Below, piece by piece: positions 28,591-60,130 of a stretch of DNA of 64,000 nt. The stretch comes from Sphagnum magellanicum (taxonomy: Eukaryota; Streptophyta; Sphagnopsida; Sphagnales; Sphagnaceae): NCBI GenBank assembly GCA_021904315.1, contig CM038924.1, positions 1,550,001-1,614,000 on the forward strand. Reading direction: 5' to 3'. The notes beneath the pieces were generated by a model. It was not told where the DNA came from, searched no databases, and saw only the letters and a list, made by a program, of their open reading frames with translations. A program made the translations under genes and the position numbers. How positions within the stretch are numbered: the first letter of the stretch is position 1; every line of letters begins with the position of its first letter.

Positions 28591-30261
28591 TTCCCCAGCA
28601 GCTGGCACTGAATCACAATGGTAGACCCTGCAACACTAGAACACACTATAAGTAAGCTTCACTTGATGTGGCAGAGGCCATCCACGGAGAAATTATCTTT
28701 TCAGAAGTGCATAGTCTTCCGGCAATCAAAGTCATCTAGACTCATGTCGTACTTATTGTAGTGTGTTGTTTGGTTTCTATTAGTTGCAGTTCTAGCGCGA
28801 CCTGGAAAGATTCTGATTTCTCACTTGGAGCTCAAGCCATAACTTTCCAACTCAATTTCTTAGTCTTCAATTTTGTGAATCACTACACGACATGCAGGTC
28901 TCTCACTGATTGGGACATTATATATATGATAAGGGAATCCAAGCTGAATATCAATGTTGGTGCAGGTCATATAGATCCATGTTTGGGATGCGAAGCGTGC
29001 TGCTGTGAGGCACGTACCTGCTACTTTTTGCGAAATTGAACAATTGGTGGCTCAAGGACTGGGAGTCCTTTTGTTCCGAATAGGCAGGGTATCCTTAGTG
29101 ATGTGCAATAACAGCAGCAACTCACACATCCCGCAGGCAGAAAATTTGTAACACTGGCTCCTTTGATGCCAATTTGAACCAAGCTGTTCAAAGAAGGACC
29201 CATTGTGGGATGAGTATTTAAACTACTCCAGATTAATGAGTAAAGTTTGCTAGAGTGAGAACTCAAATATGGCGAATAATGGATCTGCAAGTGATTTTTC
29301 CCGCACTGGAGCGCGCGGTGTCACCAACGAAAATTGAGGATGGTTGGAGCGTTATGGTGGGATACCCACCTTAGGACTTTCCTCCAACGACTACTATTGC
29401 ACAACTTCAGGCTTCTTTGACTTGTGCATGTTGTCTTTGGTTATTTTCAACTCTTGTTCAGGACTCCATTTGATCTTGTAGCTAGCCTTGAAAGAGCGCT
29501 ACCCTGCAGTCACCGAATATCACACATTGTCAGCTGTAGCTGGGTTCAGAACATTGTTTCGTCATAATTGAAGGGTTGCTAGCGTTGAAAACTAAGAAAC
29601 AACTCGACTTGAATATGAGATTCCTTGTGTGTCTACCAACCTGATCAGCTTTGCAGAATTGGAGGATTGAATGAGTGTGCAAAATAATGTCAAGAAGCTT
29701 GGACTTTGAATGAGATGATTTTCTTTTGTACTCGTTAGTTTTATGTTTTTATGAAGACAAACCTCCCGGGAAGTAATCTGCATGTCAGGAACTCGATTGA
29801 AGTGTACCACAACACGATGCTAGGAATTTTGAGTCTAAAAGTATAGTGAATGGATAATAGCAATTCTATTGGTGCATTTTGAAAATGGGGAATAAATTCT
29901 GAGATTCCAACTTGAATGGGTCTCGAGCGGAGAGAAACAAGGAGAGTAGGTGTGCACACGTAGTCCGGGTGCTAAGAGAGACAATGAAATTCCAAAGGGA
30001 GGCCTCGAGAAGAGAGCAAGCTAAATTAAATTAAACACAAGTGTGGGTCTTCCTCAGTGTAGTGAAAGACAACAGAAAGACATTGACCCTGAATATTACA
30101 GATCCAAGTTGTTGAAGCCTCGTCCACCAATAGTGCTAATAATGGAAGAAACAACAAGCTTGGGTGTGAGGATTGGAGAGAGTTAGTACCGTCGGGCTGT
30201 GCCAAGGGCCCCAATCGGCTTAGTAGTGGACTCGTAAACGAGCGTGTAGTTCCTAGTTACG
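28591..30261. other. 5' flank of the Roco gene, no gene seen
   Basis: Less AT-rich than the spacers and probably contains promoter and leader. Several open frames under 92 codons on both strands match nothing I know. No repeat from the 30-45 kb family is evident before 30260. Confidence 0.4.
28918..28927 (-). promoter_or_regulatory. possible TATA box of the Roco gene
   Basis: The minus strand reads ATATATATAA about 330 bp upstream of the Roco ATG, followed by a purine/pyrimidine-mixed leader. The position is plausible, but such motifs are common in AT-rich DNA. Confidence 0.25.
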
Positions 30262-30500: not shown

Positions 30501-33500
30501 TTAGCAGGTAAGAAGCTAGAGCTTAATGGGTGTTGCGTTGAAAGCATCCTGTGCAACAATCTACTGAGAACGCATCTCTCAAACCACTTCTTGCCTTGAT
30601 GACCAATGTCAGACCCAGTACACTGAGCCACTCAAATGATAGATATCGATATTCACACATTGACAGGCCCCTCAGGTCTGCCGTACCTTCAAGCCCAGCT
30701 CATTGAGTTTGTTGCAAACGCTTGGCAGGTTGTACCGACTGTCCTGACCTTTCATCACCCTCATTGAGTATGCGTCTAGTGGCAGATAGCGATCTCTTCA
30801 ATGCTAATTAGCGCATGGAAAGTACAACGGGACGCGTGGGAAACAAGCTTACAAGAGAATGCTGATCTCTACTTCATCACAAACTGCAGAGCATGAGATG
30901 GTACTGAGGTAGGTTGGTTAAATCAAATTTTGTGAATGTAAGAGAAGAAATGAATCTTTAAAGGCATATAATAAACATTGCGACATTCAGTAGTGACATA
31001 CATCAGACATTATTTAGAACTTCCATGTGAGCAACAGATGGGCTTTGTTTTTACCATGGTGCCAGTGTGGGTGTTGGTTCACCGAAAGGGAGTCTTCAAG
31101 TGATGAAGGTAGCAAATATCTCAGAGTCAACTTACATGTACATTTTCACTTTTAAATTATCTCTTGACAGGTCTTTTTTTGGTTGGCCTTTGTGTGATGG
31201 GTTCAAGATTATTTCATGCTTTCAATTCATGAATTCAGGTTCCTTTTTCCTATTTTATGATCCAGTGGCTTTTCACAAACTTATTTAGTCTAAACGTCGT
31301 TCAATGATGGACATTTCAAGTAAGCTGCTCAATGCCTGTTTTGCATTAAAAAGTATCATCACCAGCAAGCTTCCAAGGTAACAAAGGTTTTCTTAGTTTT
31401 TCTTTTTTTTTCCCCAATTTTGTGATGGACCTGAAGTGGGAATCATCCACACAAAGTTAAATTAACCAAATTTGGTTATAAAACAAGTAATAGAGGGATT
31501 ATTGTTAGCTTGTTGAGCTTGTTAACTTAGAATGAACTTTTCAAGCCACTTCTTGCCTTGATGTCAAATGTCAGACTTGAAACAATATTTAATCTGGTCA
31601 AATGACAGATATTGATCATCATACATTAGATGTTATATTTTCAAACATAAATGATTGATTTTATTGTTCCAGCTTAGCATATAATGCTAACTTTTCTAAC
31701 TTTTGATATGTTCATAATTTGGCATGTTTTTATTGGCAAGTGAGTAAGCTTTTTAACTCTAACTAATGCATGCTACATTAAAAGAATCATCAGTACCCAT
31801 ATTACATGTTCACTAAGCTTTTTCCCAGTACATGGGGCTTCAAGTTGAACATATCTTCAAGTGTGGCTTTTTGACTACCTCCCAAATCATTGACATGTTG
31901 TACCCAGGGTAAACTTGGTTACATACTAGATATGAAAGTAGGAAAAAAAGTAAATCCTTTTATATTCTTGGATCTCTGCTGCAATTTATTCATAAAAATT
32001 TGATGATTTGAAAAAAACTCCTTGGAAATTTGGGGCACCTTTTTCCATGAGAAATCCTTTGTATAGGTTCAAATCATATTATCAAAGAAACATGGTTGCA
32101 AGGGCTCTCTTGACTTTTCGTAAACCAGGACCCATGTCCTTCAGCCAGTATTTTTTCTTGGCAAGTAGAAAGCTCTTCAATGTGAATAAATCCATGTTGA
32201 ACTAGAAGGTTTATTGGTACCGATATTAAATGTGTATGTGCAACTGTTCACAAGGGCTTTCAAATGAATTAATTATTGAACGCACATGTGTTGAAGCTGT
32301 GGTTGTATATATGGAGTTGTCCAACTATTTAATGCAAAATATATGAAATTGATTGAAGTGCTTGTGGACAAAAAAAGTTATGGGTGAAATATTTGAAGAT
32401 TGGATTTTTTGTGCAAATGTACATAATGGGAATGTAAACAGAGCTCCTTCCAGCCCCATTATTGGGCATGTGCAAATCCTAACCTCTTCAGAGGACTAGG
32501 TCATTTGGGCCATGTGCGAGCCCATTCTTTACAACTTAAAAAATTTCAGGCAAAGTTTTGCATAATAATTATTTTGGCAAATACAAGAAAAATTCAGTCA
32601 AATGTGGCAGTAAAGGCAATTAAATTGGGATGTGACCAGCTAAAATAATGTTTTGACAACCCCTGCACTTGTCCATCATGATTGTACACCCATTACGCTT
32701 AATCCAAACTGATGTCAGCAATAAGTTCATTTTTCTGAGTTTGCTCATAAACTGGTAGGTAGCATTTTGTATGGTTGACAATTATGACACGTTGTACCTT
32801 GAAGAACCTAACAACTTACAATACCCATTTCTAATGATACATGACAACATATGTATTGTTGGTGCCCCTAAACTTCATCCTTTAAGTTTGTGTGTATCTT
32901 GGTCTAACTTGGTTCAGACCTTTGACCTGGTGCTGTGTTGGTGGCCAAAGGTAGACACATGCCATTGCTTGAGAGCTTCCCCCCACCACAAAAGATCAAA
33001 AATTGAATATAGGGTAAGGGCTGATACCAGCAACCACATCTTGTGCAATATGTACATGAAAAACGTCAAACTCCATAGCCTACCCATTCATTGATATTAT
33101 AGTTATGAAAACACCTTGGAACTCTAGCAACTTGAAATTTTCCAACCAAAAAAAAAATTCACATTTTTTTTTCTAGTTGTGCTATGCAATAAAATGTTGC
33201 TTCATACTAGCATAACGGCCTCACATGATGCACACAACATGAAATTTAAACTTTTGGTGGTGGGCCTTTTTATATGTGAAAATTAATCCAGGTCCTTAAA
33301 ATCATAATTCAGTGTTCCTCCAGACTTTTAATGTCCAAATTATAATAATAATGAATGCATGTTTGAAAACACTTTTTGGAGGATTGTCAAGCTTTCCACA
33401 TTGGGTCCATGCAGGCGAGGTTACTTCCATTTCACTCCAGACAAAACCCAAAAAAATATAGGGTTCAATTTTTTGGAGTTTTTAAAAAAATAATTTATGC

Positions 33501-40000: not shown

Positions 40001-41900
40001 GCATTTTGAATGTGATATATCCAAAAAACATTTGCCTTTTGGAATGAGGGGGTAAGAAGCAGTATTGTCAAGCTAAACCACAATTCGCTGGATGTGATTG
40101 TGCAATTCATTTGTGCAATCATCCATTTCTAAAGGTGGCTCTTTCTCTCCTAGCTAAAGTATTTGAGGCTGAACCAGTGTACATATATGACATCTTATAA
40201 AGTTTAAGAAAACAATAAAGTTTCAACTAAACCAGAACGTGCACTGAAACAAAATGAAATGAGCCAAACAAAAAAAATTAGAATAGACCCTTAAAAATAA
40301 CTGAAGTAAGGAGAATGCATTGAATTAACCAAGCTCACCAAATTAACAGTGTTTTCATTGCCAATTTTGTGATTTAGCCAAAGTCAAGATCAGCCATGTG
40401 TGGCTATATACCAGATATGAAAGTTACCAAAGAAAAACTCTATATGCTTAGTTACCAACCAGATTTTATTTATCAATAAAAAATGGCAATGTAGAATTTT
40501 TTCCATTTTTGAAATTTGGGAAATTTGGCTGAAATTTTCCTTGAATATCCTTCATATAAGGGCTTTTTCCCAAAATTTTTTCATATAGGAATTGGCAAAT
40601 GTTTCCCCCAAAATGGGAAAAATAGTTGAATGTACACTAGAAAAGCACATTTTGCGAAAAATTTCTTAATTTTTTGGTCAAAAATGGCGAAAGGAAGAAA
40701 GAAACCACTACTTCGTAAGGGAAGAAATCATACTTTTCAGGTGGAACTTTGCTGAAAATTTGCCAATAAAAAAAATCACTACAATTGAACTGATTTGCAA
40801 TTTCACAAACAATTTTTCCTTTTCTTGCAAATCCCAGTGCCCACATCTTTTAGATCAAGTAGTGGTACTATGTACTACCCATAGTGTTGCCCAATTTCAC
40901 ATCATGTTTTGGTTTCTAGTCTAAGGGTGACTTTAGACGAGTGTCCAAGGTCCAGGGGCCAATGAGCTCAAGCAATTTTATTGGTCGAAAGGTTTAAATT
41001 GGTTCCAAGGCCTTTAGACGACGGTCGAAGATTAAAAAGTGGCAAACTGAAGCTGAACCTACATGGCACCTGTTTTGGAGGAAAAATCAATTGGTTTCGT
41101 CCAAAAAACAGCAAAGGAGAGCTCCTGTTTTGGAGAAGCAAGAATCAGGCTAGGGACCAAGGTACATTCCAACTCAAGGATTCAATTTGCTTCAAATCAG
41201 TACAAATTGGTTCTTAGGAAATTGGACCCTGGACCCCTGATTAAATGGGCCTAATTATCTGGCCCATGGATAATAGGTTTTCATTGGTAGAATTGGAATT
41301 AGACCTCAAACCAACATCCTACTAGAACCAAATGAGATGTTCCTTTTGCTTGTTCCTGGTGCTCTCGGAGCCCAAGCTCTGCACACCTTCTAACACCTAA
41401 CACAACACACTAGGTGAGCCAAAAGTCTTCCGACTTCTTCCAGACTTAAATCATACCTAAGATAGATGAGTTTAGACAAGCTAAGTCTTAATGTAATGCA
41501 GACCATTTCGCAAGAGTCAATTCTCAGGACAACTCCAAGTTAGCCCAAGGCACCCAAAGAGAGAACACTTAATGGATATCTCAAGACAGCACAAAGCCTT
41601 CTCTGAGACAACACCAAGTTGTCTCAAAGGGAAGTATGAGATAACACCCAATGTTGCCCCAGGACAACCCGGTGGTCGGCCCCAAAAACGTTTTGCAGGG
41701 CAACATGAAGTGTCACCTCGGGACAAATTCACACCCCCCCTCCCTAACCCCAAGAACCTACTTTTAGTTCCTCACTAGCACTACTTACTTTCAACCATGT
41801 TCCCTCAACCACAAGGTCCAATCCCATAAGATGCCTTAGAGAGTCAAACCCAAACTTGCCATGGTTTAGCTTCCCATGCCACCATGGTGGTCCCGGCACA
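37045..41900 (+). repeat. 5-kb repeat unit, copy 2
   Basis: Starts right after MITE B with GGCTGGCTTTATAGAACCTG, the counterpart of 30468. Collinear with copy 1 through to about 41900 (CTTCCCATGCCACCATGG versus CTTCCCATGGCGCCATGG at 35573). It lacks MITE A and contains an extra 326-bp insertion at 40925-41250. No coding potential recognised. Confidence 0.75.
40925..41250. mobile_element. 326-bp insertion with CTAA duplication
   Basis: Copy 1 reads TAGTCTAATTCTGTGGCC at 34817. Copy 2 reads TAGTCTAA, then 326 bp, then CTAATTATCTGGCCC. The insertion starts GGGTGACTTTAGACGAG, ends TTAAATGGGC, and is flanked by CTAA on both sides. It contains TTTAGACGA twice and GGTCCAGGG-like motifs in opposite orientations near its ends, but true terminal inverted repeats are not evident. 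Family unassigned. Confidence 0.65.
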
Positions 41901-42254
41901 AGGCCCACCTTGAACGAGATGAACTCACCCAAAGTGGCATGTTACTGGACATTAGCTGCAAACCTTTTGTTAGCTTTGGCCTTCAAAGTAGAAATGCTAT
42001 GAGGGACCCAAAAAGGGCCAAAGTTTTGTATCCCTACATTGTAGGGTGATGTGAAGTCCATTATATTCCAAATTCATTAAACTGCTTATGAATAAAAAAC
42101 AAGTTGAGGACAAAGTTTTATTTTACCACTGTGTGATATCAAAAATTTGGCAACTTTTTTCTTAAATAAAAATACATCAGGTATGTAGCATACCAAGATT
42201 TTTATTTTATGGGACAAAATTGAGGTGCTATTGGGAACATGTTGGGGAATGTAT

Positions 42255-44705
42255 TTGAGAATGCATCGCTCAAGCCATTTCTTTCTTGCATTGATGACAA
42301 ATGTTAGGCCTAGTACAGCGACCCGCCCAAATGACACACATGTATCGTCACACATTGACAGGCCCATCAGGTCTGTTATACCTACGAGCCCAGCTCATTC
42401 ACTTTGTTGTAAATGCTTCACTTAGCATGTTGTATTGACTCTCCTGAGCTTTCTTCACCCTCATTCAGTGTGCTCCTAGTGGCAGATGGCAAGCTCTTCA
42501 ATGTTAAATAGTGAATGGAAAGTACAATGGGACGTGTTAGCTAGAAGAGAATGCAGATCTCTACTTCATCACAAACTGCAGATCACGAGAGGGCACTAAG
42601 GTAGGTTGGTTAAATCAAATTTAGTGAAAGTAACAGAACAAATGAATCGTTAAAGGCATACAACATATATTACAATGTTGAGTACAAACATGCATCAGAC
42701 ATAATTTAGAACTTTTATGTGAGCAACAAATGAGCTTTAATTCCACCATGGTGCCAGTGTTCCTTCACTGAAAGGGAATTTTCAAGTGATCAACCCAACA
42801 CAAATCTCCAAGTCCACTTACATGTATTCACTTTTAATCTATCTCTTGACTGGTCTTTTTCGTAGTTAGCCTTTGTGTGACAGGTTGAAGATTATTTAAT
42901 ACTTTCAATTCATGAATTCAGGTTCTTTTTTCCTCCTTCATGATCCAATGGTTTTTCACAGGGTTATTTAATCTAAACATAACTCATTGATTAAACTTTC
43001 AGGGGTACCAAGTAAGCTGCTCAATGCCTGTTTTGCATCCAAAACGTATCATCACCAGCAAGCTTACAAAGTAGCAATGGTTTTCTTCACTTTTCTTTTT
43101 TTCCCCCAATTTTGTGTGGGGATCATAAGAAGGTTTCGCCAAATTTGGCTTTAAACCAGGTAATAGACAGAAAAAATATTATAAATCCCTCTGTATTCTT
43201 GCCTGCCTTCTGCCACCTACTATAGATAGCTGGCTATTTGCAGAATATTAAAACAAAAAATCTGGCGAATTTGTGCTATTCATTTTGTAATTAAAAATCC
43301 TTTCCACAGGATGAAATGTGATTTTTCAGATTCAAACATGGTGAAAATTCACCAAAAGAAATCATTGCAAAGGATGGAATACCTTTGGAATAATTGCACA
43401 CCCTGTGGTAGATGGCCAATTAGCTTGAGAACACAAGAACAAAATAATGCATCTTGTTACTTGTAAGTAAGCCTTGGTTTCATTACAAACTTTAGACTCT
43501 GTACACGGATTACTCACCAACATAATTGTCAGATCACTTTGCATTTTGTGCTCAAACCCAACCTTTTTACAGGCTCATGGTTGCAGTCAGTTTTTCCCAA
43601 CAAATTTTTACATTTTTTCTGAATTAAAGTTGGGGCATTTTTGGAAATCTTGGGTTTTCTCATGTAAATTTGAATAATTTCTTGGTTTTTGGAAAAATTC
43701 ACCAAATTTCTGGTTATGACAAAATTAAAAATTCAAACTCTGTTCATGATTGCCATGACTTTTGTTCAACAAACTTTGAGGATTTTTCGGTAGAGAACTT
43801 GGGAATTTTTTAAGAAATATGGGTTTTCTAGTGTGAATGACGTATTTTCTAATTGTTTGGAAAATTTGCAAACTTTTCAATACCACAAAATTGAAAAAAG
43901 AATCTGTGCTCACCAATCCATATTCAGACCTTGTACAAACCTTGAGGGATTTCTAAAATCTTGTATCCAGTGTTTTTTTAAAGAATTTATGTTTGTAGCC
44001 AAAATGGTGATTGGCAATAGGAAGATGTAGAAAAAGTGGCAATCATCTTCAAATAAGGCTATAAACCAGATACTAAGTAGAAAATTTAATCATCCTTCTA
44101 CATCTTTGGCTACACACTCCTTTCTATAGAAATTTGGCAACTTTTTTCCCCCCCCTCACTTCTGGCGACTGAAAACCTTCAAAAATCACATCATGTTTTA
44201 ATTTTCAATTTTTTATTTCGGATTTTCATGAAATTTCACAAATGAAAAAGAGGCTGCTTCTATCCTATGTACTAATGAGTTTTGATACAGTTGTCAAACA
44301 ATTTTAGTGGAATATATTCCAAATTAATTAAACTGCAAGTGCACAAAAAAAAGGTCAGGCGTGAAATGTACATAAGGGGAATGTGAAGGAAGGTCCCTCA
44401 AGCCCCATTATTAGGCATGTCTACAACCTAAGGTGTCAAGATGGCTAGGACATTAGGGCTGGGCTGTAGCCCATGTCTTACAATCCATTAGGAGAGTTTT
44501 ACAAAATATTCATTTGGGCGCACATAAACATTTCAAGCAGGTATGGCAATAATACAGACAGTTCATTCCAGATGTGAGTAACGAGAATAAATTTTTGGCA
44601 ACTCGTGAACCTGCCTGTCAAGCTTATAGCCCATCACGTTTAGTCTACGCTGATATTGATAATATCAGCTGTAAGCTGACTCTTTTGAGTTCTGCTCATA
44701 AATGG
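42255..44705 (+). repeat. 5-kb repeat unit, copy 3 (truncated)
   Basis: 42255-43110 matches 30560-31470 of copy 1 closely (for example GATCTCTACTTCATCACAAA in both). 44290-44705 matches 32280-32760 and 38720-39200. Similarity stops at about 44705, where a segment of different composition begins. A perfect GCTGATATT/AATATCAGC palindrome at about 44650 is specific to this copy. Confidence 0.7.
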
Positions 44706-45790
44706 TAACCCGTCCATCGATGAGCATCATCGATAAGAGTATTGGGAGATGCTCAATAGCCTCAGCGAGCTCTTTCCGGATCCAAGCTCTTTCTGCTTGG
44801 TTCTATGCAAAACGATTGTGTGCAGTTCTTTTTGTACCTTGCCGTCAAGACGAACGTCAGGCCTTGAAGGATGTCAGATATTAAAGATATCCGTAAAGTC
44901 AGGAAAAGCCAGCACCAGTACCCTGAGGTTGGTCATACATAAGGTGAGATTCAAAAAAACGTGCCAAAAAGTACATGAGCATTCAATGGGAGTTGAAACT
45001 TTAGGAAACGATCAAAGAAAATCAGTCCTGAGCGCCTCCACTGCTGCTACATAAATTTTCACTGCTCCTAGCTGTACAGATACTATAATTCCCCTAAAAC
45101 CTCGTGCATTAAATGCTGAGATTCAGCATGTCGTACTGAGTTTCAGCATTTCATACTGAGATTTAATAAAATTTCCTTACTTTGCTAATACCACTAAAAG
45201 AGGGGTTAGGGGGTGAAAGGACGCCCAAAGACAGGGTGACTTTAAGCATAACTCAATTGTACTTGCTGGAACTCATAAATAACTTATTTTGTGTCAGATT
45301 ATTTACTGTAATGTTCAGGCCGTAATGTACCTGATTTCCTGATGGAGCCGTATTGGCGAACATCCCTAGGCAGATTTCGACTCTAAGTGGTGACAAGAAT
45401 CCAAAGAATTCTTTCACATTATAGCCGATACATTGAATGTGGCGATACCCTCCCCAAAAGAACTGTTTTCTGTTGCGATTTTGTGAGTTATTTTTTAAAA
45501 AGGAAATTCGTGACCGAATACCCCCTTTTCAAAAACCTGTATCGCCTTTTGGCGATTTTTCGTGGAAAAACAAAGGACTGTCTAACTTGGTGTCCGTGAT
45601 TTATTTGAAATTTACCCTGATTTCAGGTGATACAAAACAAAAATTAATATTTTGCCAAAAATTTCTTTTTTAAATGAAAACTCATCAAATTCTGAGGGAT
45701 TTCATTTTTAGGAGCCTGTCATCAAATTTACGTCTACAAACCTTTCTGCTAATGGGAACTCTGTATTGAGACATTGGTGACCTTTTTTAA
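44706..45790. other. CpG-containing segment of unknown origin
   Basis: CpG dinucleotides (GCGATT, CGTGAC, CCGAATA, CGTCAAGACG) are frequent here but rare in the repeats on either side, and no part recurs elsewhere in the window. A minus-strand stretch near 44705-44800 could encode AWIRKELAEAIEHLPILL but has no defined ends and stop codons beyond. A short tandem repeat (GAGATTCAGCAT / GAGTTTCAGCAT, about 21 bp) lies at 45117-45170. No family recognised. Confidence 0.4.
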
Positions 45791-46786
45791 TTGCTGAAAT
45801 TTTCCCATAAAGAGAAATTCAATTTTTTTAAATGACTTGATTTTGTAGGTTTTTAATTGTCTGAAGTGAGTGAGACAATAGTAAAAGTCAGCACATCCTA
45901 TATTTGGTTTGAAGTGTTAGCCAATAATATAGAAGGATGATTAAAAATTTACATTTCATCTCAGGTTTATATCAATATTTGGCTAAATCTTCCTAAGGAT
46001 GATTGGCACTTTGGCTACAAACAAAACTTCTATTAAAAAACATGGCTTTGAAGTATGGCTGCAACACAAAATTGAAGAAAAAAAAGTTCGCTTGGCATAT
46101 GAGTGATGACTTGACAAAGTCCTCGTAGATTGCTTTTCCGGGCAGCTGGTCAGAGCTGTAATGTATGCTGCAATAAAAGGGTGATCAGCACTGATTTTGG
46201 TTGTGAAGAGTATTGCCTGTTCAGAAGGCTTCTGCCCAATACTAGGCCTGAGGGGCCCCAGTTCTTAATAATTGTATAGAATGTGCTGATTAGTTTGATA
46301 AAGTGAAAAAAATTTAAAATTGAGAAAGAGCGTCTTTCACCGCACATCTTTCTGTTGTCACACACACACATCTTAACTAGTAGGTGTACCCCAAGACAGT
46401 CCGTTTCACCTTATTCTCACCTTTCTATTGGTCATAGTAATGGCGAGTCAGCGTTTTTCTGTTCAATCAATGAGTGATTATGCCAAATTTGCAATCATCC
46501 AGCAAAGCATTAAGCCCAAATTTTTGTATACACCATATATGAAAGTAAAGAAAGTTATATGCATCCTTGGCTACCTAGTGCAGCCTACTGTAAAAAGTCT
46601 GACAAGTTGGAATTTTTTCCCTCCAATTTTAGCAAATTGTTTTTAAAAAAAGGATATGCATGTCATATTAATTCATATTTTGGGAAGGGAAAGATGTCTA
46701 GGGTTTAAGGTGTAGGGTTAAATTGTAGCTTAGTATAGTAGGATAAATTGGATTGATGCAGGTTTTGCAAATGACTTTGTTTGCAC
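45791..46786. repeat. dispersed repeat fragments
   Basis: An inverted copy of the recurrent 150-bp module lies at about 45930-46060 (TTTGGCTAAATCTTCCTAAG) and a direct copy at about 46470-46610 (CATATATGAAAGTAAAGAAA, then CATCCTTGGCTACC). A CACACACACA run sits at 46360. No gene before the IFT144 pseudogene. Confidence 0.5.
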
Positions 46787-49637
46787 CTTGAGAAACTGCT
46801 GCATGAGAGCTCAGAATTTGCAATGGGGACATTGGCTCCAAGTTCCAAGCACCATATGTTGACCTGTTGCAATGCAAAATGGCAAACCTCAACCTACATT
46901 ACAACCACATAAAACCATTCAGTTTGCATATATGCAAACAGGTATAACAGATGGGTGAAGATGGGTGCTGAGCAAATTAGTCATCACAAGTGTGCCAGAA
47001 ACCCAGGACCTTCAGAAGGGCAGATTCATGTCCCTCATAGTTTGAATTGGGTTGTTGAATTGAAGTCAGGTTTTGTGATATAGTATCATGAGTTGAAAAG
47101 ACATGCTACATGATACTCAAAAGTTTGGTGAAAGTTTGCCAATACAAGCATTAACTTAGGCTTCAGAATTTAAGTATCTATGATTGTATTCTCATGAAAG
47201 CATTAGCAAGCAATCTTAGTATTTTTTATCAATTTTAATAACTTTGACATGTTGGTATTAAAAAAGTTTGCAACTTTGCACTTGAAAATTGACATCAATT
47301 GAGTGTAAGATCAGCTGCACATGAAGTATTGGAAGGAATGTGAAATGAAAGAGGGAGAGTGATGGTTGGTTGGAGAGATTTGTTTTATTTACTGGGATGG
47401 TGCAATGGCATGTAGGACAATTGAGCTGTGTTTCTGGAATCTCCAGAGAGCAAGTTGGGCATGGCACCAAAGACACCTCTTCCTCTGCTTTCTCTGGCTT
47501 CATCACAATGTTCTCATCTTGTGTTTATATGCCACAGATATTGCACTCCTGTACAGATAAGACCAAGGTGATTGGTTTCATCATCAATACCTCCCAAATC
47601 CAAACCTATAATGATATTCAATAAATCGTAATGCGTCTGATAATGTAATCCTCAAATGGTGCAATATTAATCTCCCTTTGTATGCATTCAACAGACTTGC
47701 ACAGGTTGAAAATATAATATCCCATTATGGGTTCAAGCAGGTGATCTGATGATTCTGATTAAAGCAATCTAATTCAATTTACAACAATTGAATGTATATA
47801 GGTGTGCCATTGAGTTCAAATAGCTTTGAACAAACATAGACAAGAATTGGGTGTACCAGTATTCAGGTCGCATAACCATGGAGGCATATTCAAATGTTGT
47901 TCTCTTCAAACCTGAGCGTTAGCATTCAATAACAGTGGCGGTGAGGATTGGGGGTCACATGTACTGGAAACTTGTTTAGTGAGGATGTTCTTGAGAGATA
48001 ATGCAGAGATTGAGGAGGAACTTATAACATAAGCATTTTGAGTTGAGTTTTTCGATTCTCAATCTTGTTACCTCAGCTACTTCATATGCAGTAGTAGTCT
48101 CTGCAAACTTCTTGTCAGCTTCCATTGTTTTAGCATACTGTGTACATGCAAATCCCAAAACTATGAAATTCAAAATGACTTTTCCTTTGGTAAAACACAT
48201 TGAGGAACTAACGATATGGAAGGATTTGGTGATTGAACTTGTAGTGGCGTTGGACGTACAAGAAGGGAAATTCTAAGGCAGCAATTTTTTTTCGTGTCAT
48301 GGCCACTAACCTCAATTTGAAGCTTTGGACTAGCAATGCGGTCCAAAAGTGGATGCACTTTTGTGTAGCTTTTGATAGTAATATAAAGCCTTGTTGCTTT
48401 CTTTATCTGTCCTCCTCAGTCAAACATCTCCTTTGCATCCTGCAATTCAAAAGAATTATCCCATTCATCATACCTCAAATTTTTTTCAAGTTCTTAAGAT
48501 CTTTATATATATCTTTGCCTAATGTTTTGATCACATTGAGAAACTCATACCTGAAGCAAGTTAAGGCCTTTGAAAATCCAAGCACAATCCATATACAACT
48601 GTGTATTGTTGCATTAGATTGCCATTTGTCGGCCCTTCCACAAATCCCCAAGTTGAATGCACATTTGTGCAAATCCAACTTGCCACAAAAAAAGTTATAT
48701 CCGAATCTCAAAGAAGAATATGCATTGGGTGTTTTGTTTTTTGTACCTTGGAACTATATTGTCTTTTTGGCAAACTTTGGTGTTTTGTTTTTGTAGAATT
48801 GCCCCATGGTCTTATGAAGTTTGCTTCATCGAAATGATGGTCATTGGAAATTCAAAAAAAAGGATAGGAATTTCATGGAGTAGACCTCGGCAATATAGCG
48901 ATTTGTCTGTTTGGATACATCAAACTTCAAGTACTCCTCATAATGAGAAAGTGCCAAATGATGATCACCATGCATCTCCAACTGTTGTGCATACTCCCTT
49001 ATTATTTCAGTCATTGGAAAATTCAACTACTCAGCTAGCTCTAAAGCCTAATGCAGACACAACAACCAATCATCCACCCCCTAGCTCCCCATCATTACTA
49101 AAGCTCAGGTTTTCATTACAACAAAAACAACAAATATGCATGTAGCCTTGGGATTGGACCTTATCCCATTGTTGCAAATGACACCGCATGTCACAAGTAG
49201 CTTCTAGATGGGATGACTTCAGAAAAGCCTCATATACACAATTCAAGCCCCCCCCCCCCAAAAAAAATAATTAAAAAGTTTTGTTACATACTTCTCATGT
49301 CAGTGCCCTTCTTCAAACTAGAACTCAGGAAAAAGAAGAATCAAAAATGGGTTTTTTTCATTATGGCATCCTAAAACATTGACAGTAAACAACATGTGCA
49401 TAAGATAATACAAATATACATACATATATACCTAGGATGCATCATACAACTGAAGAAATGACAAAATATGACCAGCCAACAAAAAATGTTCTTCAACCTA
49501 CTATATTTGGGTTAGCTCCATAAGGAGTGTTGCATTATAGGAGTCTTGGCATGCCTTCATTGCTCTTTTTATCTTCATTTGCTCCATTGCCTTTTTTGTA
49601 AAGATGTCCCACACTTGGATTACATTTGTGCCCATCA
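46787..49637 (-). pseudogene. WDR19/IFT144 pseudogene, C-terminal half
   Basis: Exon-sized blocks with GT-AG-like edges follow the order of IFT-A subunit WDR19/IFT144: about 49620-49505 (AMKACQDSYNATLLMELTQI); 49245-49160 (CDMRCHLQQWDK); 49047-48886 (ALELAE, stop, then EYAQQLEMHGDHHLALSHYE); 48678-48551 (FAQMCIQLGDLWKG); 48439-48311 (LLDRIASPKLQIE); 48137-48072 (YAKTMEADKKFAETTTAYE); 47989-47857 (LNKFPVHV, ATVIEC, MVMRPEY); 47548-47393 (PCPTCSLEIPETQLNCPTC); 46879-46787 (CIATGQHMVLGTWSQCPHC). The last two are the cysteine-rich zinc-binding tail. In-frame stops occur at 49027, 48614, 48416, 47919 and 46811; frameshifts near 47950 and 47515. Exons for roughly 280 residues between the sixth and seventh blocks are missing, as is everything N-terminal (the WD40 repeats). 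IFT144 works in retrograde ciliary transport. This copy cannot make the protein. Confidence 0.85.
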
Positions 49638-52600
49638 TCAATGCATGAAAATCAACTCCGGTGACTTGAACCTCTCAATGTCAAATGAACAACTAAAAAG
49701 CAAATTGTAAAAACACTGGAAATTTCCTCCTGTGCCCCATTCAATTCTTAAAAGCAATAATGTGAAAGCATAAAGGAAGAAAATGGAAAACTGGTGCCAT
49801 AATCACAAATAGCACAATATAAATCAAACATGAAAATTTTCATTCCTATCTTTTTCTAGGCCAAACATACTCCCCATAGGCATACAAGCCTACAAAAAGG
49901 CTCACAACCAAAAAAGACATAAAAGGAACAAAAATGCACCTATAATTTCACAATCACAACCCATTCGACTAGATGCCAGTAAAGAGGCCAACAACAATGC
50001 CATTGGCAATGCCAACCCCACATAAGTTTATGGCATACCAAGACAACACTAAGGATTCAACATCCAAATTACATAGAATATACATGTTGGTCAAATTAAA
50101 GATGAGAAGTATGAAGCTAAAATTTCAGTCAAAAATATATATCTATGATATTGTAGAGAGATCTCCACAACAACACTTTGAAAGATAACATGACACTTGG
50201 GTGTGCTTGAATCACTCATAGAAGTGTCAAACATTCAACTTTGAAAAACACAAAACATATGTTCAACTTCAAAACAAATTCAAGAAACCAACTCCCTTTA
50301 GAATTTTGTGCTTTCGCACCTGGCTCAACATCACTAAAACACAAACATCTAAGTGTACTTTATGAACTATTACCCCAAAACACTACACAAGGAATGTTAA
50401 ATGCTAGTCCCACAAATAATATAAGAAGTTAAAATAAACCCTTTGAGGATTTGTGTCTAAAGAAAAATCAATATGCTATAATCTATATTGGCTCCCACAA
50501 GACCATGGAAATAATCACTTTTAAAACCCAAATTGCCTCTTCCAGATTAAAACCCAAATTGCCTCTTCCAGAGCAGCTCCTAGTTCTTTCTGAGAGCTGC
50601 CACCTAAACTTTTAGCATTGGGAAGAAAGGCAATCACCCTTTTCTCACACCCCTAGAACACCAAACAAGGTTTAAAAGTTGATGTAGACAAGTTAACTTT
50701 CTGTCCTAAATATCCAAAAGATTATAGAGAAAACTCCACAAAAACATTTTGAAGGTAAACATTATGTCAGTTCCAACCAAGCCAAAACAAACACAAGAAT
50801 AAATAATGCAGTCATAACCTTGAGAATGTCATTTATAATGTAACAGAATATCACCTTCATTATGAACAATAATGTTTAGCTGGTATCCAAGTTAGATTCT
50901 CTACTGACTATATGAGCTCCTTACAATGGGTATATTTAGGGCAACAACACCTTTTAAGTGCTAACCAACATGCTTGATTATTCTTGTTGCTTTTAAAAAT
51001 ATGATAAAACCTGAGGACATAAATTTTTGTATGATTATTGTTTGCCCCAAGTTGAATGCACTTTCATTACATACTAAGTACACCCATTGTACTTTGGACT
51101 ATTTGTTTTTTAACTATATACAGACCTGGTGATTGATTTTGACTTGCAGTTCAAAACTTCAATGTCGTTCTTCTGCAAAAACACACATTGTAGCCTAGCA
51201 ATTCTATTATACAACCTTCACTAGTTTGCAAAACTCCTCCATACGATCTCTCAAGTTTTCATATTCACCACTAGTGCACCCAGTGATAAGCAAGTGTCCA
51301 AATTAATTCACAAGTTTGTGCTCAGCAAGTTCATTCAACAAAGGTAAAGGGACCAACTTCAATCTCATTCAAGAACTGTAATGCCAAATGATTTTTTGAA
51401 GACATCTGTCAAGAATGCCAATCATGACTTTACTTATTTCATCCTTGGATTGTTGTTTACGCACTGATGATTCACAACTTTCAACACAAAGATGTTTCCA
51501 TAGGGCTTGTTTGGATGAGAAACCAGAGACACTAGTGCTTGGCACTCCATGCACCATCTAAAATTGTCACAATGCCTTTATTGTCTCTAGTCCAAAATAC
51601 ATGCACAATTTAATTTACAGCCACCAAATCCTAACATTAGAGGATTTGATTGCCTTTGCAATCAAGGTTTCAAAGGGAGAGAGACTTCTGCAAATAGCTT
51701 CCTATAAACACTATGTATACACATCAAACAATGTAAGTAATAGATTGCTTATTCTATCACACAAGTTCGAGTAGGAAGATGGCCAATCCAGTACAATGTT
51801 TTTTGCACAGATACAAAGAAAATTAACACTAGAGTGGGGTGGACAATTTAATCAAAGAAAAGAACAGAAAGCCTTGTGCAAAGGATAAATTCTAAGGCAA
51901 ATAATGTGCATGTTTGTTGCAGTGGGAGCAACAATATTGCAAGTTGGGGTTTCATCAACCCTAAAATCACCTCCCAATGAAAAATTATCATTCTTTCAAA
52001 GGAGAGCTCTTGTCCAAGATCTGATGTAACAAAGTGCATGCAATTCTTAGGAGGTGTCGCATTTCCCTGAGTAACTGAATGGGAATCATCACCAAGCAAG
52101 CAAGTAGCCTATGCCATTTCATCCTCAACCCTCTCAACATCCTCTTTCTCTCCCAATCCAAAGGCATTTTTGAAGAAACATGTGAAATTTAACCCAAAAA
52201 ATAAAACATGCACACACGCACCTGCAGATCCAACACTTGAGGTCTAGAATCTCCTTCCCACATGTCTCCAGAGTATTTGGTTCCTAAATCTTGGTCAGTT
52301 TTGACACAAGGTTCTCATCCACCCTTGTTCGCTTTCTTTTGTATTGTCAGTTTTGTGCTACCCTAGTTCCTGATTCGCATAATCCAAGCTTCTTGCACCA
52401 CCGCTCTCTTTCATCATTAGATTCTTATAGTGGTTCATTATCATGTATCCTAAGTCCTCGCACTTCAACCCCGTGCAATTTCTCCCTTGCGACAACTTGC
52501 TCCTAATTTACTATTGCTGCCACCATCGTAAAAAAATGACGATAAAACAAAACTGTTCAAACTTTCATCATTCCAAATAATTGTCAAAAATAGTCATTTT

Positions 52601-53059
52601 GATGCATAATTGTTGACCAAGTGACCATTTGTAATTGTTATGATTGATGACTATGATGTAACCATCTGAATGATGAAAAAGAATCCTATATCTTATTTAT
52701 ATAAACTAGTTCGATTATCATCATCACTCGAATAAGAGAATGTGACTTTTCTCACACTAAAAGCCATGACATATGTGAATGTGAGAAATTTTGTGTTTTC
52801 ATCCATTACAATATACAATTTAATGTGATATTTCTTGTGGCATATAGTACATTGAAATGTCAAGTTGACATGAGGTAATGACACACATGACACAAATGTA
52901 ATATATGTCAACCACATTCTCTTGTAGTGATCCGATGAACAAGTGGAAATTATTATTTTCATGTCAAAGCACATGTGAAAATTTTGCCCCAAACAAATCA
53001 TTGTGGTGATTATGAGGACTGACCAGAAAGTTGTGTTACATTTGACAACGAGATGTTCC
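49638..53059. other. spacer upstream of the IFT144 pseudogene
   Basis: No further IFT144 exons are recognised. A minus-strand stretch near 50020-49960 could encode a hydrophobic peptide (CGVGIANGIVVGLFTG), but it is followed by a stop and I cannot identify it. Otherwise AT-rich with short random open frames. Confidence 0.4.
50521..50572. repeat. perfect 26-bp tandem duplication
   Basis: Two identical 26-bp copies (50521-50546, 50547-50572) starting TTAAAACCCAAATTGCC. Their identity marks a very recent event. Confidence 0.95.
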
Positions 53060-55124
53060 CTTTTGTTTACTTTTCTTATTTCATATCCAATGGCTTGTGA
53101 GGAATCTGCAGCTCAAATCAAGACTCACATTAGGCTACATCATTTTTCTCTTCAATTTATGCAGTCAGTAGATTTTTCCTATCTGATGATGAAAAGGCTT
53201 TTTACAGTTGTAAATTTGAACCCAACTCATTGATCAAGCTTTCATGTCAACTTTCATGGGCAAGCAGTGAGCTCTTCACTCCCTGTCCCACTAAAAGCAT
53301 CATCACCAGCAAGCTTACAAAGAAAAAATGGTTTTTCTTTGAATTTGTGATGTAGCTTGCAGTGGCATTTATCAAAAAGATTTGACCCAAAATTGGCTAT
53401 AAATCAGATATCAAAGGAAAATAATCCTAATGTCCTTTTCTGTTCTTGCCTACCTACCCCAGAACCTATTGTAGAAATCAGACAATTTCTCCCAAAAAAA
53501 TCAAAATCTGGTGAATTTGGACCATTATAATTTCATTACAAATCCTTTGTGCCTAGGTCGAACTCAGATTTCTCAGGTAAAAAAAAATTCACCACAAACA
53601 GGAAAGCATGTGTGTGTAAGATCTTAATAACTAGAAGTGGAAAGAAAAAATTAGCAAAAATCCGCATATTTTTATATTTGGTTTTCAGTATGTAGCCAAA
53701 AATATGAAAGATCATTTAACATTTGACTGTCATAAACCTTCCTAGGCATGGTTGTCACTTTCTCTACATTCCTTTGGATGATCCCCACTTTGGCTGCATC
53801 AAAACATGCTCTTTAAAAAAACACTAGCTTTGCTTGAGGGAATTCCAAATTATCCTGTACATCCTTTGAGGAACTCATAGACATATTTGTCAAATTGTTT
53901 AGCATAATGTGACTGGTTTTTTACATTAAAAAGTCCTCATAGATTGCTTCAATGGGCAGGTAATAACCAAGATGAGACAGGGTCTCAATGGGAGTGGGGA
54001 CCCATACCTCAATACCGATATGAGAGACATGTTCGGTACTAAGATTGCATTTAGTGACTGGGATGGTATTGTCTTTCAAGCTATGAGTCTTTCATTATAG
54101 CACTTATGTTTCATCTTTATCCAACAGTTCATTAAATATTGATGGGCTCCAATCTAAATGGAGAGGTCCCAAGTGATCAAGTTAAGAAAAATATTTTATG
54201 AGTCTTAGATCTTGGTCCATGGCATGTGACTAGTTCTTTACAAGTTTATGTTTCATGCATGTGAGAAGTTCAAAATGAAAATTTGACACCCTATTGGATT
54301 GTTCCCTTTGCTTAAGGGTTTTTCTTTTTTGCTTTCACAGTGTTTTGACAAGTTCAAAGTTCAAACTTAGACCCAGCTCCTAGATTAGGCTTGCATGGAC
54401 ATGTTATAAACTCTTCAATGGGTGTTCCATTCAAGCGATCAGCAACCTCAGGCTTAAGGGTATGGACTATGCACTTATATGTCATGACTGTGATGGATGT
54501 TTTTGGTAGCCCAGTAATTCCAAAATACAATGAAAAATGAATAACATATTGGAAGCCACATCTTGTGATCATATGAGTGTCAGACTTGGTATCCTTTTCT
54601 ATTCGTTGATTTAGTTATGAAACAACTTGAAGTTTAATTCCATTCATTGACTAAGGTTTCAGTGGCACTTAGCAAGTCTCAGGCCTTGACATACCTGTTG
54701 CCTGAAATGCATCATCTGTAGCAAACGTAGAAGGGAACCTAAGTATCTTTTGTAGGACATGGAGTCATGGGTTCCTTCACTTGAAAAATGAAATCAAGGT
54801 CCAGTACATTCCTTAAATCGCATCTTGTCTTGTCAAATGGTATAAGCATGTTGCACTGCCTGCCTCTCATGGAAGTACACTGACGGTCATGAACAGTGCC
54901 TGGCACCACAAATGTCACTAAATGTAATGGAAGGGAAATTGCATTTCATGGGTCACAGGTTCCAAACCGCATTTCTAATGCTGGGTTCAAATCAGTGTTG
55001 AGTAATGACAAGAAAAATCACAACAATATATTGAGTATCAAGTACCATTTTTTGGGGGGATGATTCTTGTTTTCTAAAGAATTGTTTTATCTACCAGGTA
55101 AAGATTGTGAGACTGAGGCCTGCA
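53060..55124. repeat. fragments of the dispersed repeat family
   Basis: 53060-53330 matches 31200-31400 and 42900-43080 (ending CATCATCACCAGCAAGCTTA). 53345-53480 is a direct and 53670-53820 an inverted copy of the recurrent 150-bp module. Further diverged fragments follow to about 54700. No gene. Confidence 0.6.
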
Positions 55125-55480
55125 TTACACCAGGAGTCAGGGCCCAAAAAACTTGGGGCCAACGGTCACATTTTTGGCTTGTTGTTTGGCCCCAACTTCC
55201 TAATACCTGCTAGAACTTTGACGTCAGGATATTAATAAATGCTGGAACATTGGCCCAAGGCTTGCAAACTGGCTTCCCAAATTTGATGGTATCCTTCTTT
55301 CAGCCTTGGGGACAATACAAGGCCATAAAGTTCAGCATTTACTAGTAGCCTGGGGCAAATTGAAAATATTTTTTCTAGTTCAGCCTTGACTCCTAGTGTA
55401 AAGACCTTGGGACCAATTTCAACTTTTGCACCAATAGGAAAGCGATTTGGGTTGAACATTGGCCCTGACTCTTAGTGTAA
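55125..55480. mobile_element. 356-bp inverted-repeat element (MITE-like)
   Basis: The left end TTACACCAGGAGTCAGGGCC and the right end in reverse TTACACTAAGAGTCAGGGCC match at 18 of 20 positions. An internal copy of the end motif (GACTCCTAGTGTAAAG) lies at about 55389. No target duplication could be fixed, so the superfamily is open. No coding sequence. Confidence 0.7.
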
Positions 55481-55670
55481 AGAAGGGCTCAATCACATTA
55501 TGCATTGTTCGTGCCCCTAAACTTGATCCTTTAAGTTTGTATGTATCTTGGTCAACTTCCATAGATTTTCTTGGATATTAACTTTGAAAGATGGGGGTGA
55601 CACAATTGGCAAGAGTCAGTTCTGGAGGCAACATAAACAAGCAAATTAACAGGTCCTCAAGTGTTTTAGA

Positions 55671-56133
55671 CCAGTGCTACCTGGTTTTTCTTTCGTTTAT
55701 TAACCACTGGATACCTAGTTTTTTTTTCTTCAATTTTTTTTGGAAACCACACAGGTTATCAATATATTAAAATTTTGATTGCCAGGTAAAATATTTAAGA
55801 AATTGGGTAATAACTATTAGTTATGCATAAGGGTAGGCTATCAAATAATTGGCTGATAGCCACCTCATTTTTGTTGACTATTAACTGAATGTAAGGTTTT
55901 TTTAAAAATAAAATGGAGGTATTTTTTATTTTTTATTTCTTAATTTTTTGTATCGGTGCCTACAGATTAATAACCGACCTGGATGATAATCAGGTCATCC
56001 AGGTAGGTTATTAGATTTCTGAGAATTCAATACCAGGCAGTTATCAACCAAACTGGTTGTCAAAAGATCAAGAACAAACTGATAGGTTATTAAAATTGAC
56101 CTGGGTCAAAAATCAACAACCAGCCAACACTGG
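55671..56133. mobile_element. 463-bp inverted-repeat element (MITE-like)
   Basis: The left end CCAGTGCTACCTGGTTTTTC and the right end in reverse CCAGTGTTGGCTGGTTGTTG are related. TAATAACC / GGTTATTA and ACCTGG motifs recur inside in both orientations. Target duplication not evident. No coding sequence. Confidence 0.5.
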
Positions 56134-57900
56134 TATGATGATTAAAGATTTGGCCTTCATATTCAGTTTACAGCCAGATTTGCCTAAATCTTCATAGGCA
56201 TGAATGCCACTTTCTCTACATCTTCCCATGGATGATCTTCAATCGCCATAGGTTCAAAATTTATAAATTCAAGTATCAGAAAACCCAATCATCAAGGGCT
56301 TTCCAATATTACCAAGAGTTCATTTAAATGTTTTTTAATTTTTTTGATTATTTTTTTTGTCAAAATTGTTGAATATTCAATAACTCCCACACAATAAGTC
56401 TAAATAATATGACACCACCTCTGTGCACCCGTACCCAATTAGGGCTTTCCATCAATACCAATTGTGCAAGGGAGGCACTTGGTTTGAGGGATCTCAACAT
56501 GATAAACAAAATAACTACCTTCCTTAATAGATAAATTTATCTATAGTCCTCTATTTCACTTTATATTAATCTCACTATTAGTCATGAGGTTAAGCTTTAG
56601 TGATTTAGTGTTATTTTTTCTTTTTCCAATTTTGTAATGTGACCAAAGGCTTGATCATCCACAAGAAGAATGAGCCAAACTTAGCTTATTCATGAGATAT
56701 GAGAGTGAAAGAATTTATCCTTCTACATCCCTGGCTACTTACTGGATCCTTGTATAAAGACCTTGTGATTTGAAATTTCTTTTCCTTGCAATCTGGTGAA
56801 TTTAGAACTTTTTCTTTTCATGCAAAATCTTTTGCTTCTGTGAAAATGTCATTTGCAGGTTTTAAAATGGCAAAAAATCAGCCCTGATAAAATCATTGTG
56901 GCTATGATAGGTTCACCTAAAAGATGTGTTTCATGTGATGGGTTCCAAAAACATTTTTTCTGTTGGGGATTAATGGCTTAAAAATAAGGGCTTGATGGGC
57001 TTGACTGCAGGACATGGGCTTTGACTCCCCTTGCACTTGATCCTTTCTCTAGTGTGGAACTTCTCTTTTTATCAAGTAAATGTAAAGAGGTGGAATTTTT
57101 TTATGTCAAAACCTTTTTTCTTCAAAATAAGGGCAAGGCCAAGAAAAATGAAGCCCTCAAATGAAAATCAAATTGAAAACATCATTCCAAGGAAATGTAT
57201 AAGGAAAATTAGTGGTTTTTTCCTCCAAAATTCTAATGTTGCATCATATGGGAACATCCCTAGAGAAATTTAACATTAAATGGAGGGTAGTTTTTTACAA
57301 CTTGTCCAAAAAGATTTTTAAAACTCCTACAAAATAGCCCCCTCTAAAGCCCAAGTAGAAATGTGGTGAACTTTTTTCAAGAATTTTTTTCAAAATTTGA
57401 AGATTTTTTCCTTAAAAAAAAGAGCAATATATAGAAGAACATTCCTTTTTATTTATATTTTTTCATTTAAGAAAAATTCCACACCAAATAAAAGTTGAGG
57501 TGCTAAGGAAAATGCATTCGTTTATAATTTATTATAACACATGGCAATTATTCTTGTTTGTTGTAATAACATTTCGCATACTCACAAAAGCTAACAAAAG
57601 GTTCCATGCCAATCTCACCGACAAATCACCAAAGTGCACTAGTACTCAACAGTGCACCAGGAGTGATGGATTCTAAGACCTGCGCATGATACAAAACTTG
57701 ATATCACTAGGTTCTTGTCATATTTCTAAACAAAATGTTTAACATAGTTCCAATTTTTTTTATTCTAAATTTTTTATTTATGGCAAGTGTGAGGTAGTGG
57801 GGTAGAAAGGAAGTGATCTGATGAATTTGTTAATGATGAATCTTTCACTATTTTTCAAAAGCAGTTGAAAAAATCTTGTCAATTTTTTGCATTTTCATTC
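56134..57900 (+). repeat. dispersed repeat, pair of 15791-17400
   Basis: 56240-57900 is collinear with 15791-17400. It also contains an inverted (56160-56240) and a direct (56628-56780) copy of the recurrent 150-bp module, the latter with TTTTGTAATGTGACCAAAGG and TCATGAGATATGAGAGTGAA. Confidence 0.65.
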
Positions 57901-60130
57901 TAAATATGTTTTCCCTCCAAATTTTTGTAAATTCACCAAAAAACCAATATTTTGAACCCACTAATACTACTGTCTTATTGAGATGTACCATTAAACTTTC
58001 AAGATTTTATGATTGTTCAATGTGAGAACATGATTTTCTGTTTATTCTAACCATAAAGTGAAATACTCCTCGTTACCCATTTCACACATTGTAGTGCAAT
58101 TACTAATGTGAAAAAAACAGAAAGCTTTTAAATCACAATAGTCGCAATTCAAACACACACAGAACAGACACAATATTTTGTATTTTATTTCTTTCCTTGC
58201 ATTGATTATTAAGAGAAAGAGTGTGAGTCGTGACCTTATACCTTTGGAAAGGTTTTAATTTTGTGCTACCATTTGCCATTATACAAATGCCTTGAATGCA
58301 TTGGGATACAAATTGAGCACCCACACATTCCAAGTACCCAATTGTGTGAACAACCCTCCATCAGTGACAAGCAAGCAACCAAGCAGTCCATTGGGAAAAA
58401 GCGTAAAAGAGAATGCAGGGAGATAAATGAGGAGGAATGAGAAAGGAGGAGCTAACTTAGTAGCTAGGCTACCAATGTTTGATTTAATCATAATGTGCAA
58501 ATTTCATGAAAGAGATCATATTCCCAAAGTAACAACATGGGCTCCAAAAGGGTTGCAAGTTTGCTCTCTCTCCAAGTTGATAGGTTTATACCTCTTTTGC
58601 CCTGGGGGCTGTTACAGGGCCAAAAAGTGTCAAATTAAAATATTCACTTTGAATTTAACCTACACCCATTTACTTGGGCTTGTATCAATGTTCACCACAT
58701 ACAACATACAGCAATCATTATTGGCCCATCTCCACACATTATAAGTATGAAAAAATGGACAACATAAAGAGAGAGGCTAGGTATTTAAATGTCACCATGG
58801 GAACCAATCGTTATGACTGGCCAATAAAAAATAGTCATTTCCTCTCACTAGCTACTCTGACCAGACCTTTGGTACTGGTGGAAAGCTCTCTATGAGTAAA
58901 GGGTGCATGGAGATGGTTTTGTAATGTTTTAGACATACAATGCAGGAGTTATTGAATATTGAACAATTTTGTCATTGAAAATATAGTAAAACTAAAACAA
59001 AAAATTGGAAAGAAACTGAGGTGTGCTTTTCCATACTATTGGAAAGTGCTCAATGAGTAGGATCTTATGGGGGTGATGTAAGGTGCAGGAGAATTTGAAT
59101 AATCTTTGCAATTGGAAGTTCAATAGAAATTCAGAATTCTATTTTAATTGAAATTTTCAATTTTGTGATGTATTGGGTCAATACAGTGGTGGTCATCCAC
59201 AAGAGGAATTACTCAAATTTGGCTACAGGTTAGAGAGAAAAGTAGAATTTAAAAAAGAATCCTGCTATATTTTGGCAACATGTTGGAACATGGTGATTTC
59301 GGAATATTTTTCCTCAGAATTTGGCTCTGATAACTTCACTCTTGGCCCGCCTGCACAGGCCACACCACTGATTTATTTGGTGGCGAATTTTCGCCATTTT
59401 GCAATAAATAATTTGAAAATAGAGTACTTTACCACAAATTCCCTGCGTTTTTGGAAAAGAAAAAAACCCAAAACGCCAAAAAGCGAATGAAAAAAATTTC
59501 CCAATTGCGTAAGATATGAAAAGGTACATAATTTTTTTCCAATCACATATTTTGAATATTGCGAAATTTCAGTAAATCTACTTAAGGGAGGATCGCCAAG
59601 TAATCAACATTACAAAATCAAAATAAGAACCCATGCAACCTATTAAGTTCATGTTCCAAGTACACACGATGAAGCTTTCGAATGGCATCGACAAGTTCGA
59701 AAACTACAACTCGTAATTTAAATGGGTTTTACTTTCCGAATTGTGTTTATTTGGTGGGGGCCGCGCGAACGCGAGCCCCCTCTGCCACAAATTACGACGT
59801 GCATGCCCCCCTAAGGAAGTTGCTAGGGTCACCCGTTCCTTCGTGCAATGGGATAGGATGTCCTAGGCCATCGGCCATCTTGACCACCGATTGACCCCGC
59901 CCAGGTAAGTAGATTCAAAATCTTATCTTGCCGTTTTTATACCCTTTCTTCCGTCTCCAATGCCAAAGCCTATGGGACATCTCCCAACAGCTTCCCTTCC
60001 CTTCCCTTTCCACGCTGCTTGCAGATCTATCTCTTAGCGACCAGCAAAAAAAACATCGCACTCCTCGTGCGCACAATTGAGATCCTTTTCTTGTTTTTGT
60101 GTGTGACACTCTCTCTCTCTGCCGGCGCAG
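57901..60130. other. spacer, becoming CpG-richer after 59.6 kb
   Basis: 59160-59290 is another copy of the 150-bp module (GGTGGTCATCCACAAGAGGA). From about 59600 the composition changes, with several CpGs, a GGCCGCGCGAACGCGAGCC stretch at 59759, and pyrimidine-rich runs (CCCTTCCCTTCCCTTTCC at about 59995, CTCTCTCTCTCT at about 60110). This resembles a plant gene's 5' region. A 70-codon open frame at 59682-59894 is unrecognised. Confidence 0.4.

Follow-up and report, generated by a model that had tools for sequence, protein, structure and literature searches.

Results and discussion

A disrupted IFT144 fragment in the window

The window, i.e. the whole stretch of 64 kb from Sphagnum analysed here (C18:1550001-1614000), holds on its minus strand at positions 46696-49662 a fragment derived from WDR19/IFT144. 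Comparison of human WDR19 with the entire window by tblastn gave seven matches at E<=0.1 (E 1e-8 to 0.006). They are collinear, lie without exception on the minus strand between positions 49614 and 46793 and correspond to human residues 677-1304. Chlamydomonas IFT144 produced five matches. As a control the reversed window was searched with both queries and yielded no match at all, which rules out chance similarity to IFT144. Thus, the nine ordered exon blocks of the C-terminal half of WDR19/IFT144, including its cysteine-rich tail, that the original prediction had seen in the bare sequence are real. The zinc-finger piece alone finds IFT144/WDR19 among the PDB entries (E 0.0012). With the TPR piece alone designed TPR proteins come out on top and WDR19 is fourth at E 0.57; taken singly, this piece proves nothing on the identity of the gene. 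In Pfam, two tail pieces have sub-threshold matches (Zf_IFT144_1st and Zf_2nd_IFT121) and nothing specific was found for the five other pieces.

Elsewhere in the window there are a full-length match to U1 spliceosomal RNA (59754-59912, minus strand, 116.8 bits), open reading frames of the ROCO type with LRR, Roc and COR-A matches (22592-28635, minus strand; Roc and COR-A below the Pfam cut-offs) and a reading frame with a protein kinase domain (3134-4090, minus strand; PK_Tyr_Ser-Thr, E 8.7e-34). A tRNA scan of the window found none.

By homology the fragment corresponds to C6:23735314-23740716 minus an internal deletion (blastn, two pieces, 91% and 89%; 91.1% identity for the fragment). Compared with the gene on C6, from which our own exon numbering E6-E20 is taken, nine exon blocks (E6-E11, part of E18, E19 and E20) remain at 46787-49614:

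49432-49614, minus strand: E6, start of the TPR part; three stops, acceptor AG changed to AA
49160-49231, minus strand: E7; no stop, acceptor AG changed to AT
48886-49047, minus strand: E8; one stop
48551-48679, minus strand: E9; one stop, acceptor AG changed to AA
48311-48439, minus strand: E10; one stop
48072-48137, minus strand: E11; no stop
47976-47978, minus strand: scar of a deletion of about 2.4 kb (E12-E17 and 32 bases of E18), common to copy e at C18:16.14 Mb
47857-47978, minus strand: E18, 3' part; one stop, 1-base insertion
47393-47548, minus strand: E19, first zinc finger of IFT144; 1-base deletion
46787-46879, minus strand: E20, second zinc finger; one stop, acceptor AG changed to CA

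Eight in-frame stops are distributed over six of the nine blocks, and seven blocks are disabled once the single-base insertion in E18 and the deletion in E19 are counted. Damage in every region, as stated originally, is a slight overstatement: E7 and E11 have neither a stop nor a frameshift. Of the 17 splice dinucleotides still present, 13 are intact and 4 are changed; the other 13 of the total of 30 are gone with the deletion. The middle block of exons, already noted as missing, was removed by this one deletion, which corresponds to C6:23736604-23739030. Five of the eight stops (codons 39, 61, 161, 190 and 522) recur in other copies of the fragment.

The IFT144 gene on C6

The searched genome comprises 438,994,042 bases in 31 contigs; for 28 of these the lengths are 17–36 Mb (C1-C19), 4.7 Mb (C20) and below 0.23 Mb (the other eight). 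A whole-genome search with the C-terminal part of Chlamydomonas IFT144, the kind of protein search by which the original reading was to be checked, resulted in 22 exon matches. Stops occur in none of the six matches on C6 versus nine of the 16 elsewhere. At C6:23735404-23740668 there are 15 consecutive exons, E6-E20, with a total of 1878 nt and no stop. All 30 splice dinucleotides of these exons are AG/GT; as the borders were chosen to be AG/GT and in frame under guidance by homologues, what counts is that every exon allows such borders. Pfam matches to PF24762 and PF23145 are above the cut-offs, that to PF23146 is below its cut-off. The open frame includes the C-terminal TPR solenoid and the zinc fingers. 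By these criteria, the C6 gene appears to be an IFT144 gene by descent that comprises the C-terminal two thirds of IFT144. Its present role would presumably be in the intraflagellar transport of sperm flagella.

A family of partial copies on C18 and C23

With window positions 46701-49750 as a DNA query, the genome search returned the fragment itself, six further partial copies, one locus on C6 and a short piece on C4 consisting of flank only. Counting the window copy there are seven partial copies, six on C18 (f at 1.14, b at 1.52, window at 1.60, c at 15.99, d at 16.08 and e at 16.14 Mb) and one on the unplaced 119 kb contig C23. All derive from the same internal piece of about 5.4 kb of the C6 gene and lie within longer duplicated blocks. 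Their stops number eight in the window copy, 17 in b, 11 in c, 16 in d, three in e, none in the short copy f and 15 on C23. Five of the seven copies reach a common border at C6:23740716 (all except e and f) and five a common border at C6:23735314 (all except c and f). Since at each border the copies that reach it stop at an identical C6 base, the copied fragment starts within the intron that precedes E6 and finishes in the one that follows E20. In a tree, the window copy is grouped with e, and b, d, c and C23 form a second group, each with 100% support, while f remained unplaced. On C18 (18.3 Mb) the copies lie near 1.1–1.6 and 16.0–16.15 Mb; two of the three left-hand copies and all three right-hand ones are oppositely oriented.

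Beyond the fragment, the copies resemble one another over kilobases and have no match to C6. In the window these flanks are:

41734-46637, no strand: left flank, duplicated block common to b, d, e, f and C23 (about 92–95%); no counterpart at c or C6 within the stretches fetched
49663-52449, no strand: right flank, duplicated block common to b, c, d and C23 (about 85–86%); absent from e, with pieces on C2, C4, C5 and C10

For the 1.4 kb beside the left junction, only places on C18 and C23 match beyond about 270 bases (among 40 of 1897 candidates scored), and right-flank DNA is found also on C2, C4, C5 and C10 (among 40 of 662 candidates scored). Two further duplications were observed in the window. 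Positions 30565-31498 constitute a nested older one, resembling the left-flank block of other copies at about 76–81%, and 52926-59849, adjoining the U1 match, has a 96% duplicate near C18:16.14 Mb that extends as far as the piece fetched there.

Instead of segmental duplication, a transposable element (Pack-MULE, Helitron or similar) might have captured the piece and distributed it. The identical C6 borders of the copies would fit such an origin, as would the right flank, which is present elsewhere in the genome without a listed IFT144 match and on C4 breaks off no more than about 15 bases from the IFT144 junction. However, the flanks which the copies have in common extend over kilobases and are patchy. 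Inspection of the junctions by eye revealed no terminal repeat, target-site duplication or Helitron ends, only about five shared bases (ACCAG) at one junction, and six reading frames in the flanks contained no transposase, with sub-threshold Pfam hits only. Capture by a transposable element thus appears rather unlikely to us.

Decay of the copies and constraint on the C6 gene

Relative to C6, the window copy has transitions at 15 of 50 CpG and 50 of 216 CHG sites and C-to-T changes at 44 of 467 CHH sites. In the seven copies together, 30 of the 70 stop codons are CAG to TAG changes. This pattern fits putative plant methylation at CG and CHG followed by deamination, and the copies look non-coding and silenced.

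Selection was analysed on 1071 coding and 1766 intron sites which are covered by both copy groups, with copy f left out. On the branches leading to the copies we counted 21 synonymous, 62 nonsynonymous and 9 stop changes, against a neutral expectation of 29:65:6.5% that was computed from the base changes on the same branches. The substitution check foreseen in the original prediction thus speaks for an absence of constraint. On the C6 branch, to which the stem shared by the copies belongs and from which it is inseparable without an outgroup, the corresponding figures are 15:13:2, different from the copy branches (Fisher p=0.010), and here the exon rate is half of the intron rate (30/1071 vs 96/1766, p=0.0009). 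The copy branches show the opposite, a higher rate of change in exons than in introns (92/2142 vs 92/3532 branch-sites, p=0.0006). This is not what plain neutrality would lead one to expect; the CHG-richness of the exons may be the cause. Notwithstanding this exon excess, the copies appear to have evolved without constraint since their duplication, and the C6 gene seems to be a conserved IFT144 under purifying selection. The original prediction had offered an intact paralogue elsewhere as one of two possibilities, and the C6 gene takes this place, with the reservation that its N-terminus of about 437 residues was not found.

The N-terminus of the C6 gene

Matches of the C6 gene to IFT144 begin only at about human residue 438. 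The first ~437 residues remained undetected in four genome searches and one local search. In the 21.6 kb upstream of the gene no N-terminal exon was found, and the C6 stretches contain no runs of N. Whole-genome searches with the first-propeller family and with the N-termini of the Chlamydomonas and human proteins gave only other WD40-type matches: three loci, two of which we take to be Cdh1/FZR-like and one WDR5-like, besides a match on C9 and a weak one on C1. From the second beta-propeller (PF15911), positions 76-263 of 275 are found in open C6 exons, with one weak hit also on C12; positions 1-75 were not found in the genome profile search. As a positive control, the next 224 residues of the Chlamydomonas query detected three C6 exons (E 2e-4 to 9e-4). 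Among the matches listed, no exon could be assigned to a short stretch that lies between exon three and the exon preceding E6. The region in question is C6:23742397 and upstream; an RPL23/uL14-type gene (Ribosomal_L14 match) is located 1.5 kb upstream of the IFT144 gene on the same strand.

The absent N-terminus may have been truly lost, may have diverged strongly or may fall into a gap of the assembly. We put forward only tentatively, and with more doubt than conviction, that the IFT144 of this moss works although it is shortened at its N-terminus, where the first beta-propeller and the beginning of the second would be missing, and that the gene begins just downstream of the RPL23-type gene; our reserve is due to the fact that a cut in the middle of a propeller would be structurally odd. 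If true, sperm flagella would operate with a trimmed IFT-A in a group of land plants from which other parts are already reported absent: non-seed land plants are said to lack some IFT-B, BBSome and transition-zone components (PMC4092220). This raises the sharper question of whether IFT-A can work with an IFT144 that has no N-terminal propellers, for which mosses, belonging to these plants with reportedly trimmed cilia, would be well suited.

Flagella and other IFT genes

Sphagnum belongs to a group with swimming sperm, in accordance with the plant lineage with motile sperm that had been deduced from the fragment. The second possibility offered at that time was that this lineage is in the process of losing flagella, or IFT-A, with the window copy as a sign of it. 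One may cite for it that a full-length IFT144 was not found, residues 1-437 being undetected in genome and local searches alike, and that non-seed land plants are reported as devoid of a number of IFT-B and BBSome components (PMC4092220). But the C6 exons have open frames and proper borders and are under constraint, and five of the eight stops of the window copy are found in other duplicates. Furthermore, two other IFT genes were matched over nearly their whole profiles. In the genome profile search, IFT122 is represented by four exon matches on C16 spanning positions 2-381 of 381, one of them containing a stop, and an IFT140/IFT172-type TPR gene by nine matches on C3 spanning 1-485 of 486, two of them with stops; the latter profile covers both IFT140 and IFT172, and C3 is the only locus among the matches listed. 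The stops in these matches may result from introns that were read through. Because a conserved C6 copy is under selection, the decayed IFT144 is not evidence for a loss of flagella. An ongoing loss is therefore very improbable, and a false lead is removed: what the window copy appears to represent is an ordinary family of duplicated pseudogenes with a well-defined parent.

Origin of the window copy

We conclude that the window copy is very probably a duplicated (unprocessed) pseudogene, a passenger copy of a piece of the C6 IFT144 gene. The parent is present in the same genome, introns are retained, the frame is disabled and constraint is absent since duplication. Not a gene decaying in place, it would rather be an internal fragment lacking the start and the last exon. 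According to this scenario, an internal piece of about 5.4 kb of the C6 gene, with 15 internal exons and their introns, would have been copied into C18-type DNA, probably in a single first event. Carried along in larger duplicated blocks, presumably by segmental duplication, it would have given rise to at least seven partial copies, which became silenced and decayed by C-to-T changes at CpG and CHG in the absence of constraint. The window copy has the deletion of about 2.4 kb in common with its nearest relative e, and the C6 gene would have been kept under purifying selection. Homology, shared borders, copy number, decay pattern and the constraint on C6 are shown by the data. Against full confidence stands that the C6 gene itself looks 5'-truncated, so that its own function can only be presumed.

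Highly improbable is an assembly artefact with duplicates or stops as sequencing errors: the unplaced C23 (119 kb) does resemble copy b on C18 (95%), but the copies differ from one another by 3–12%, their derived stops and the deletion are distributed in a tree-like manner and the stops follow the C-to-T pattern. A processed (retro-) pseudogene is hardly conceivable and was rejected, as the introns still stand where they do on C6 (in the window copy, 1842 sites of the C6 fragment outside the exons could be aligned) and nothing was found in its favour.

Comparison with known systems

A literature search found no relevant report on IFT144 pseudogenes in plants and, judged by the titles listed, no study of WDR19 in mosses; what exists on IFT-A in bryophytes and on flagella and gymnosperms provides general context only. 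Compared with WDR19/IFT144 itself, a subunit of IFT-A (PDB 8fgw, 8bda, 8f5o, 8hme), the window copy is collinear with human residues 677-1304 and both zinc-finger regions are recognisable, but it is disrupted by stops, frameshifts and the 2.4 kb deletion. With duplicated pseudogenes spread by segmental duplication the copies share the kept introns, the present parent, unconstrained decay and blocks of common flanks; unlike typical cases, only an internal piece of a gene is involved, with a single pair of borders for those copies which reach them. The downy mildew Hyaloperonospora is comparable in that its genome, too, is reported to hold decayed remains of flagellar genes (PMC3471859). The moss case differs in that a conserved gene is kept and that the plant group makes swimming sperm.
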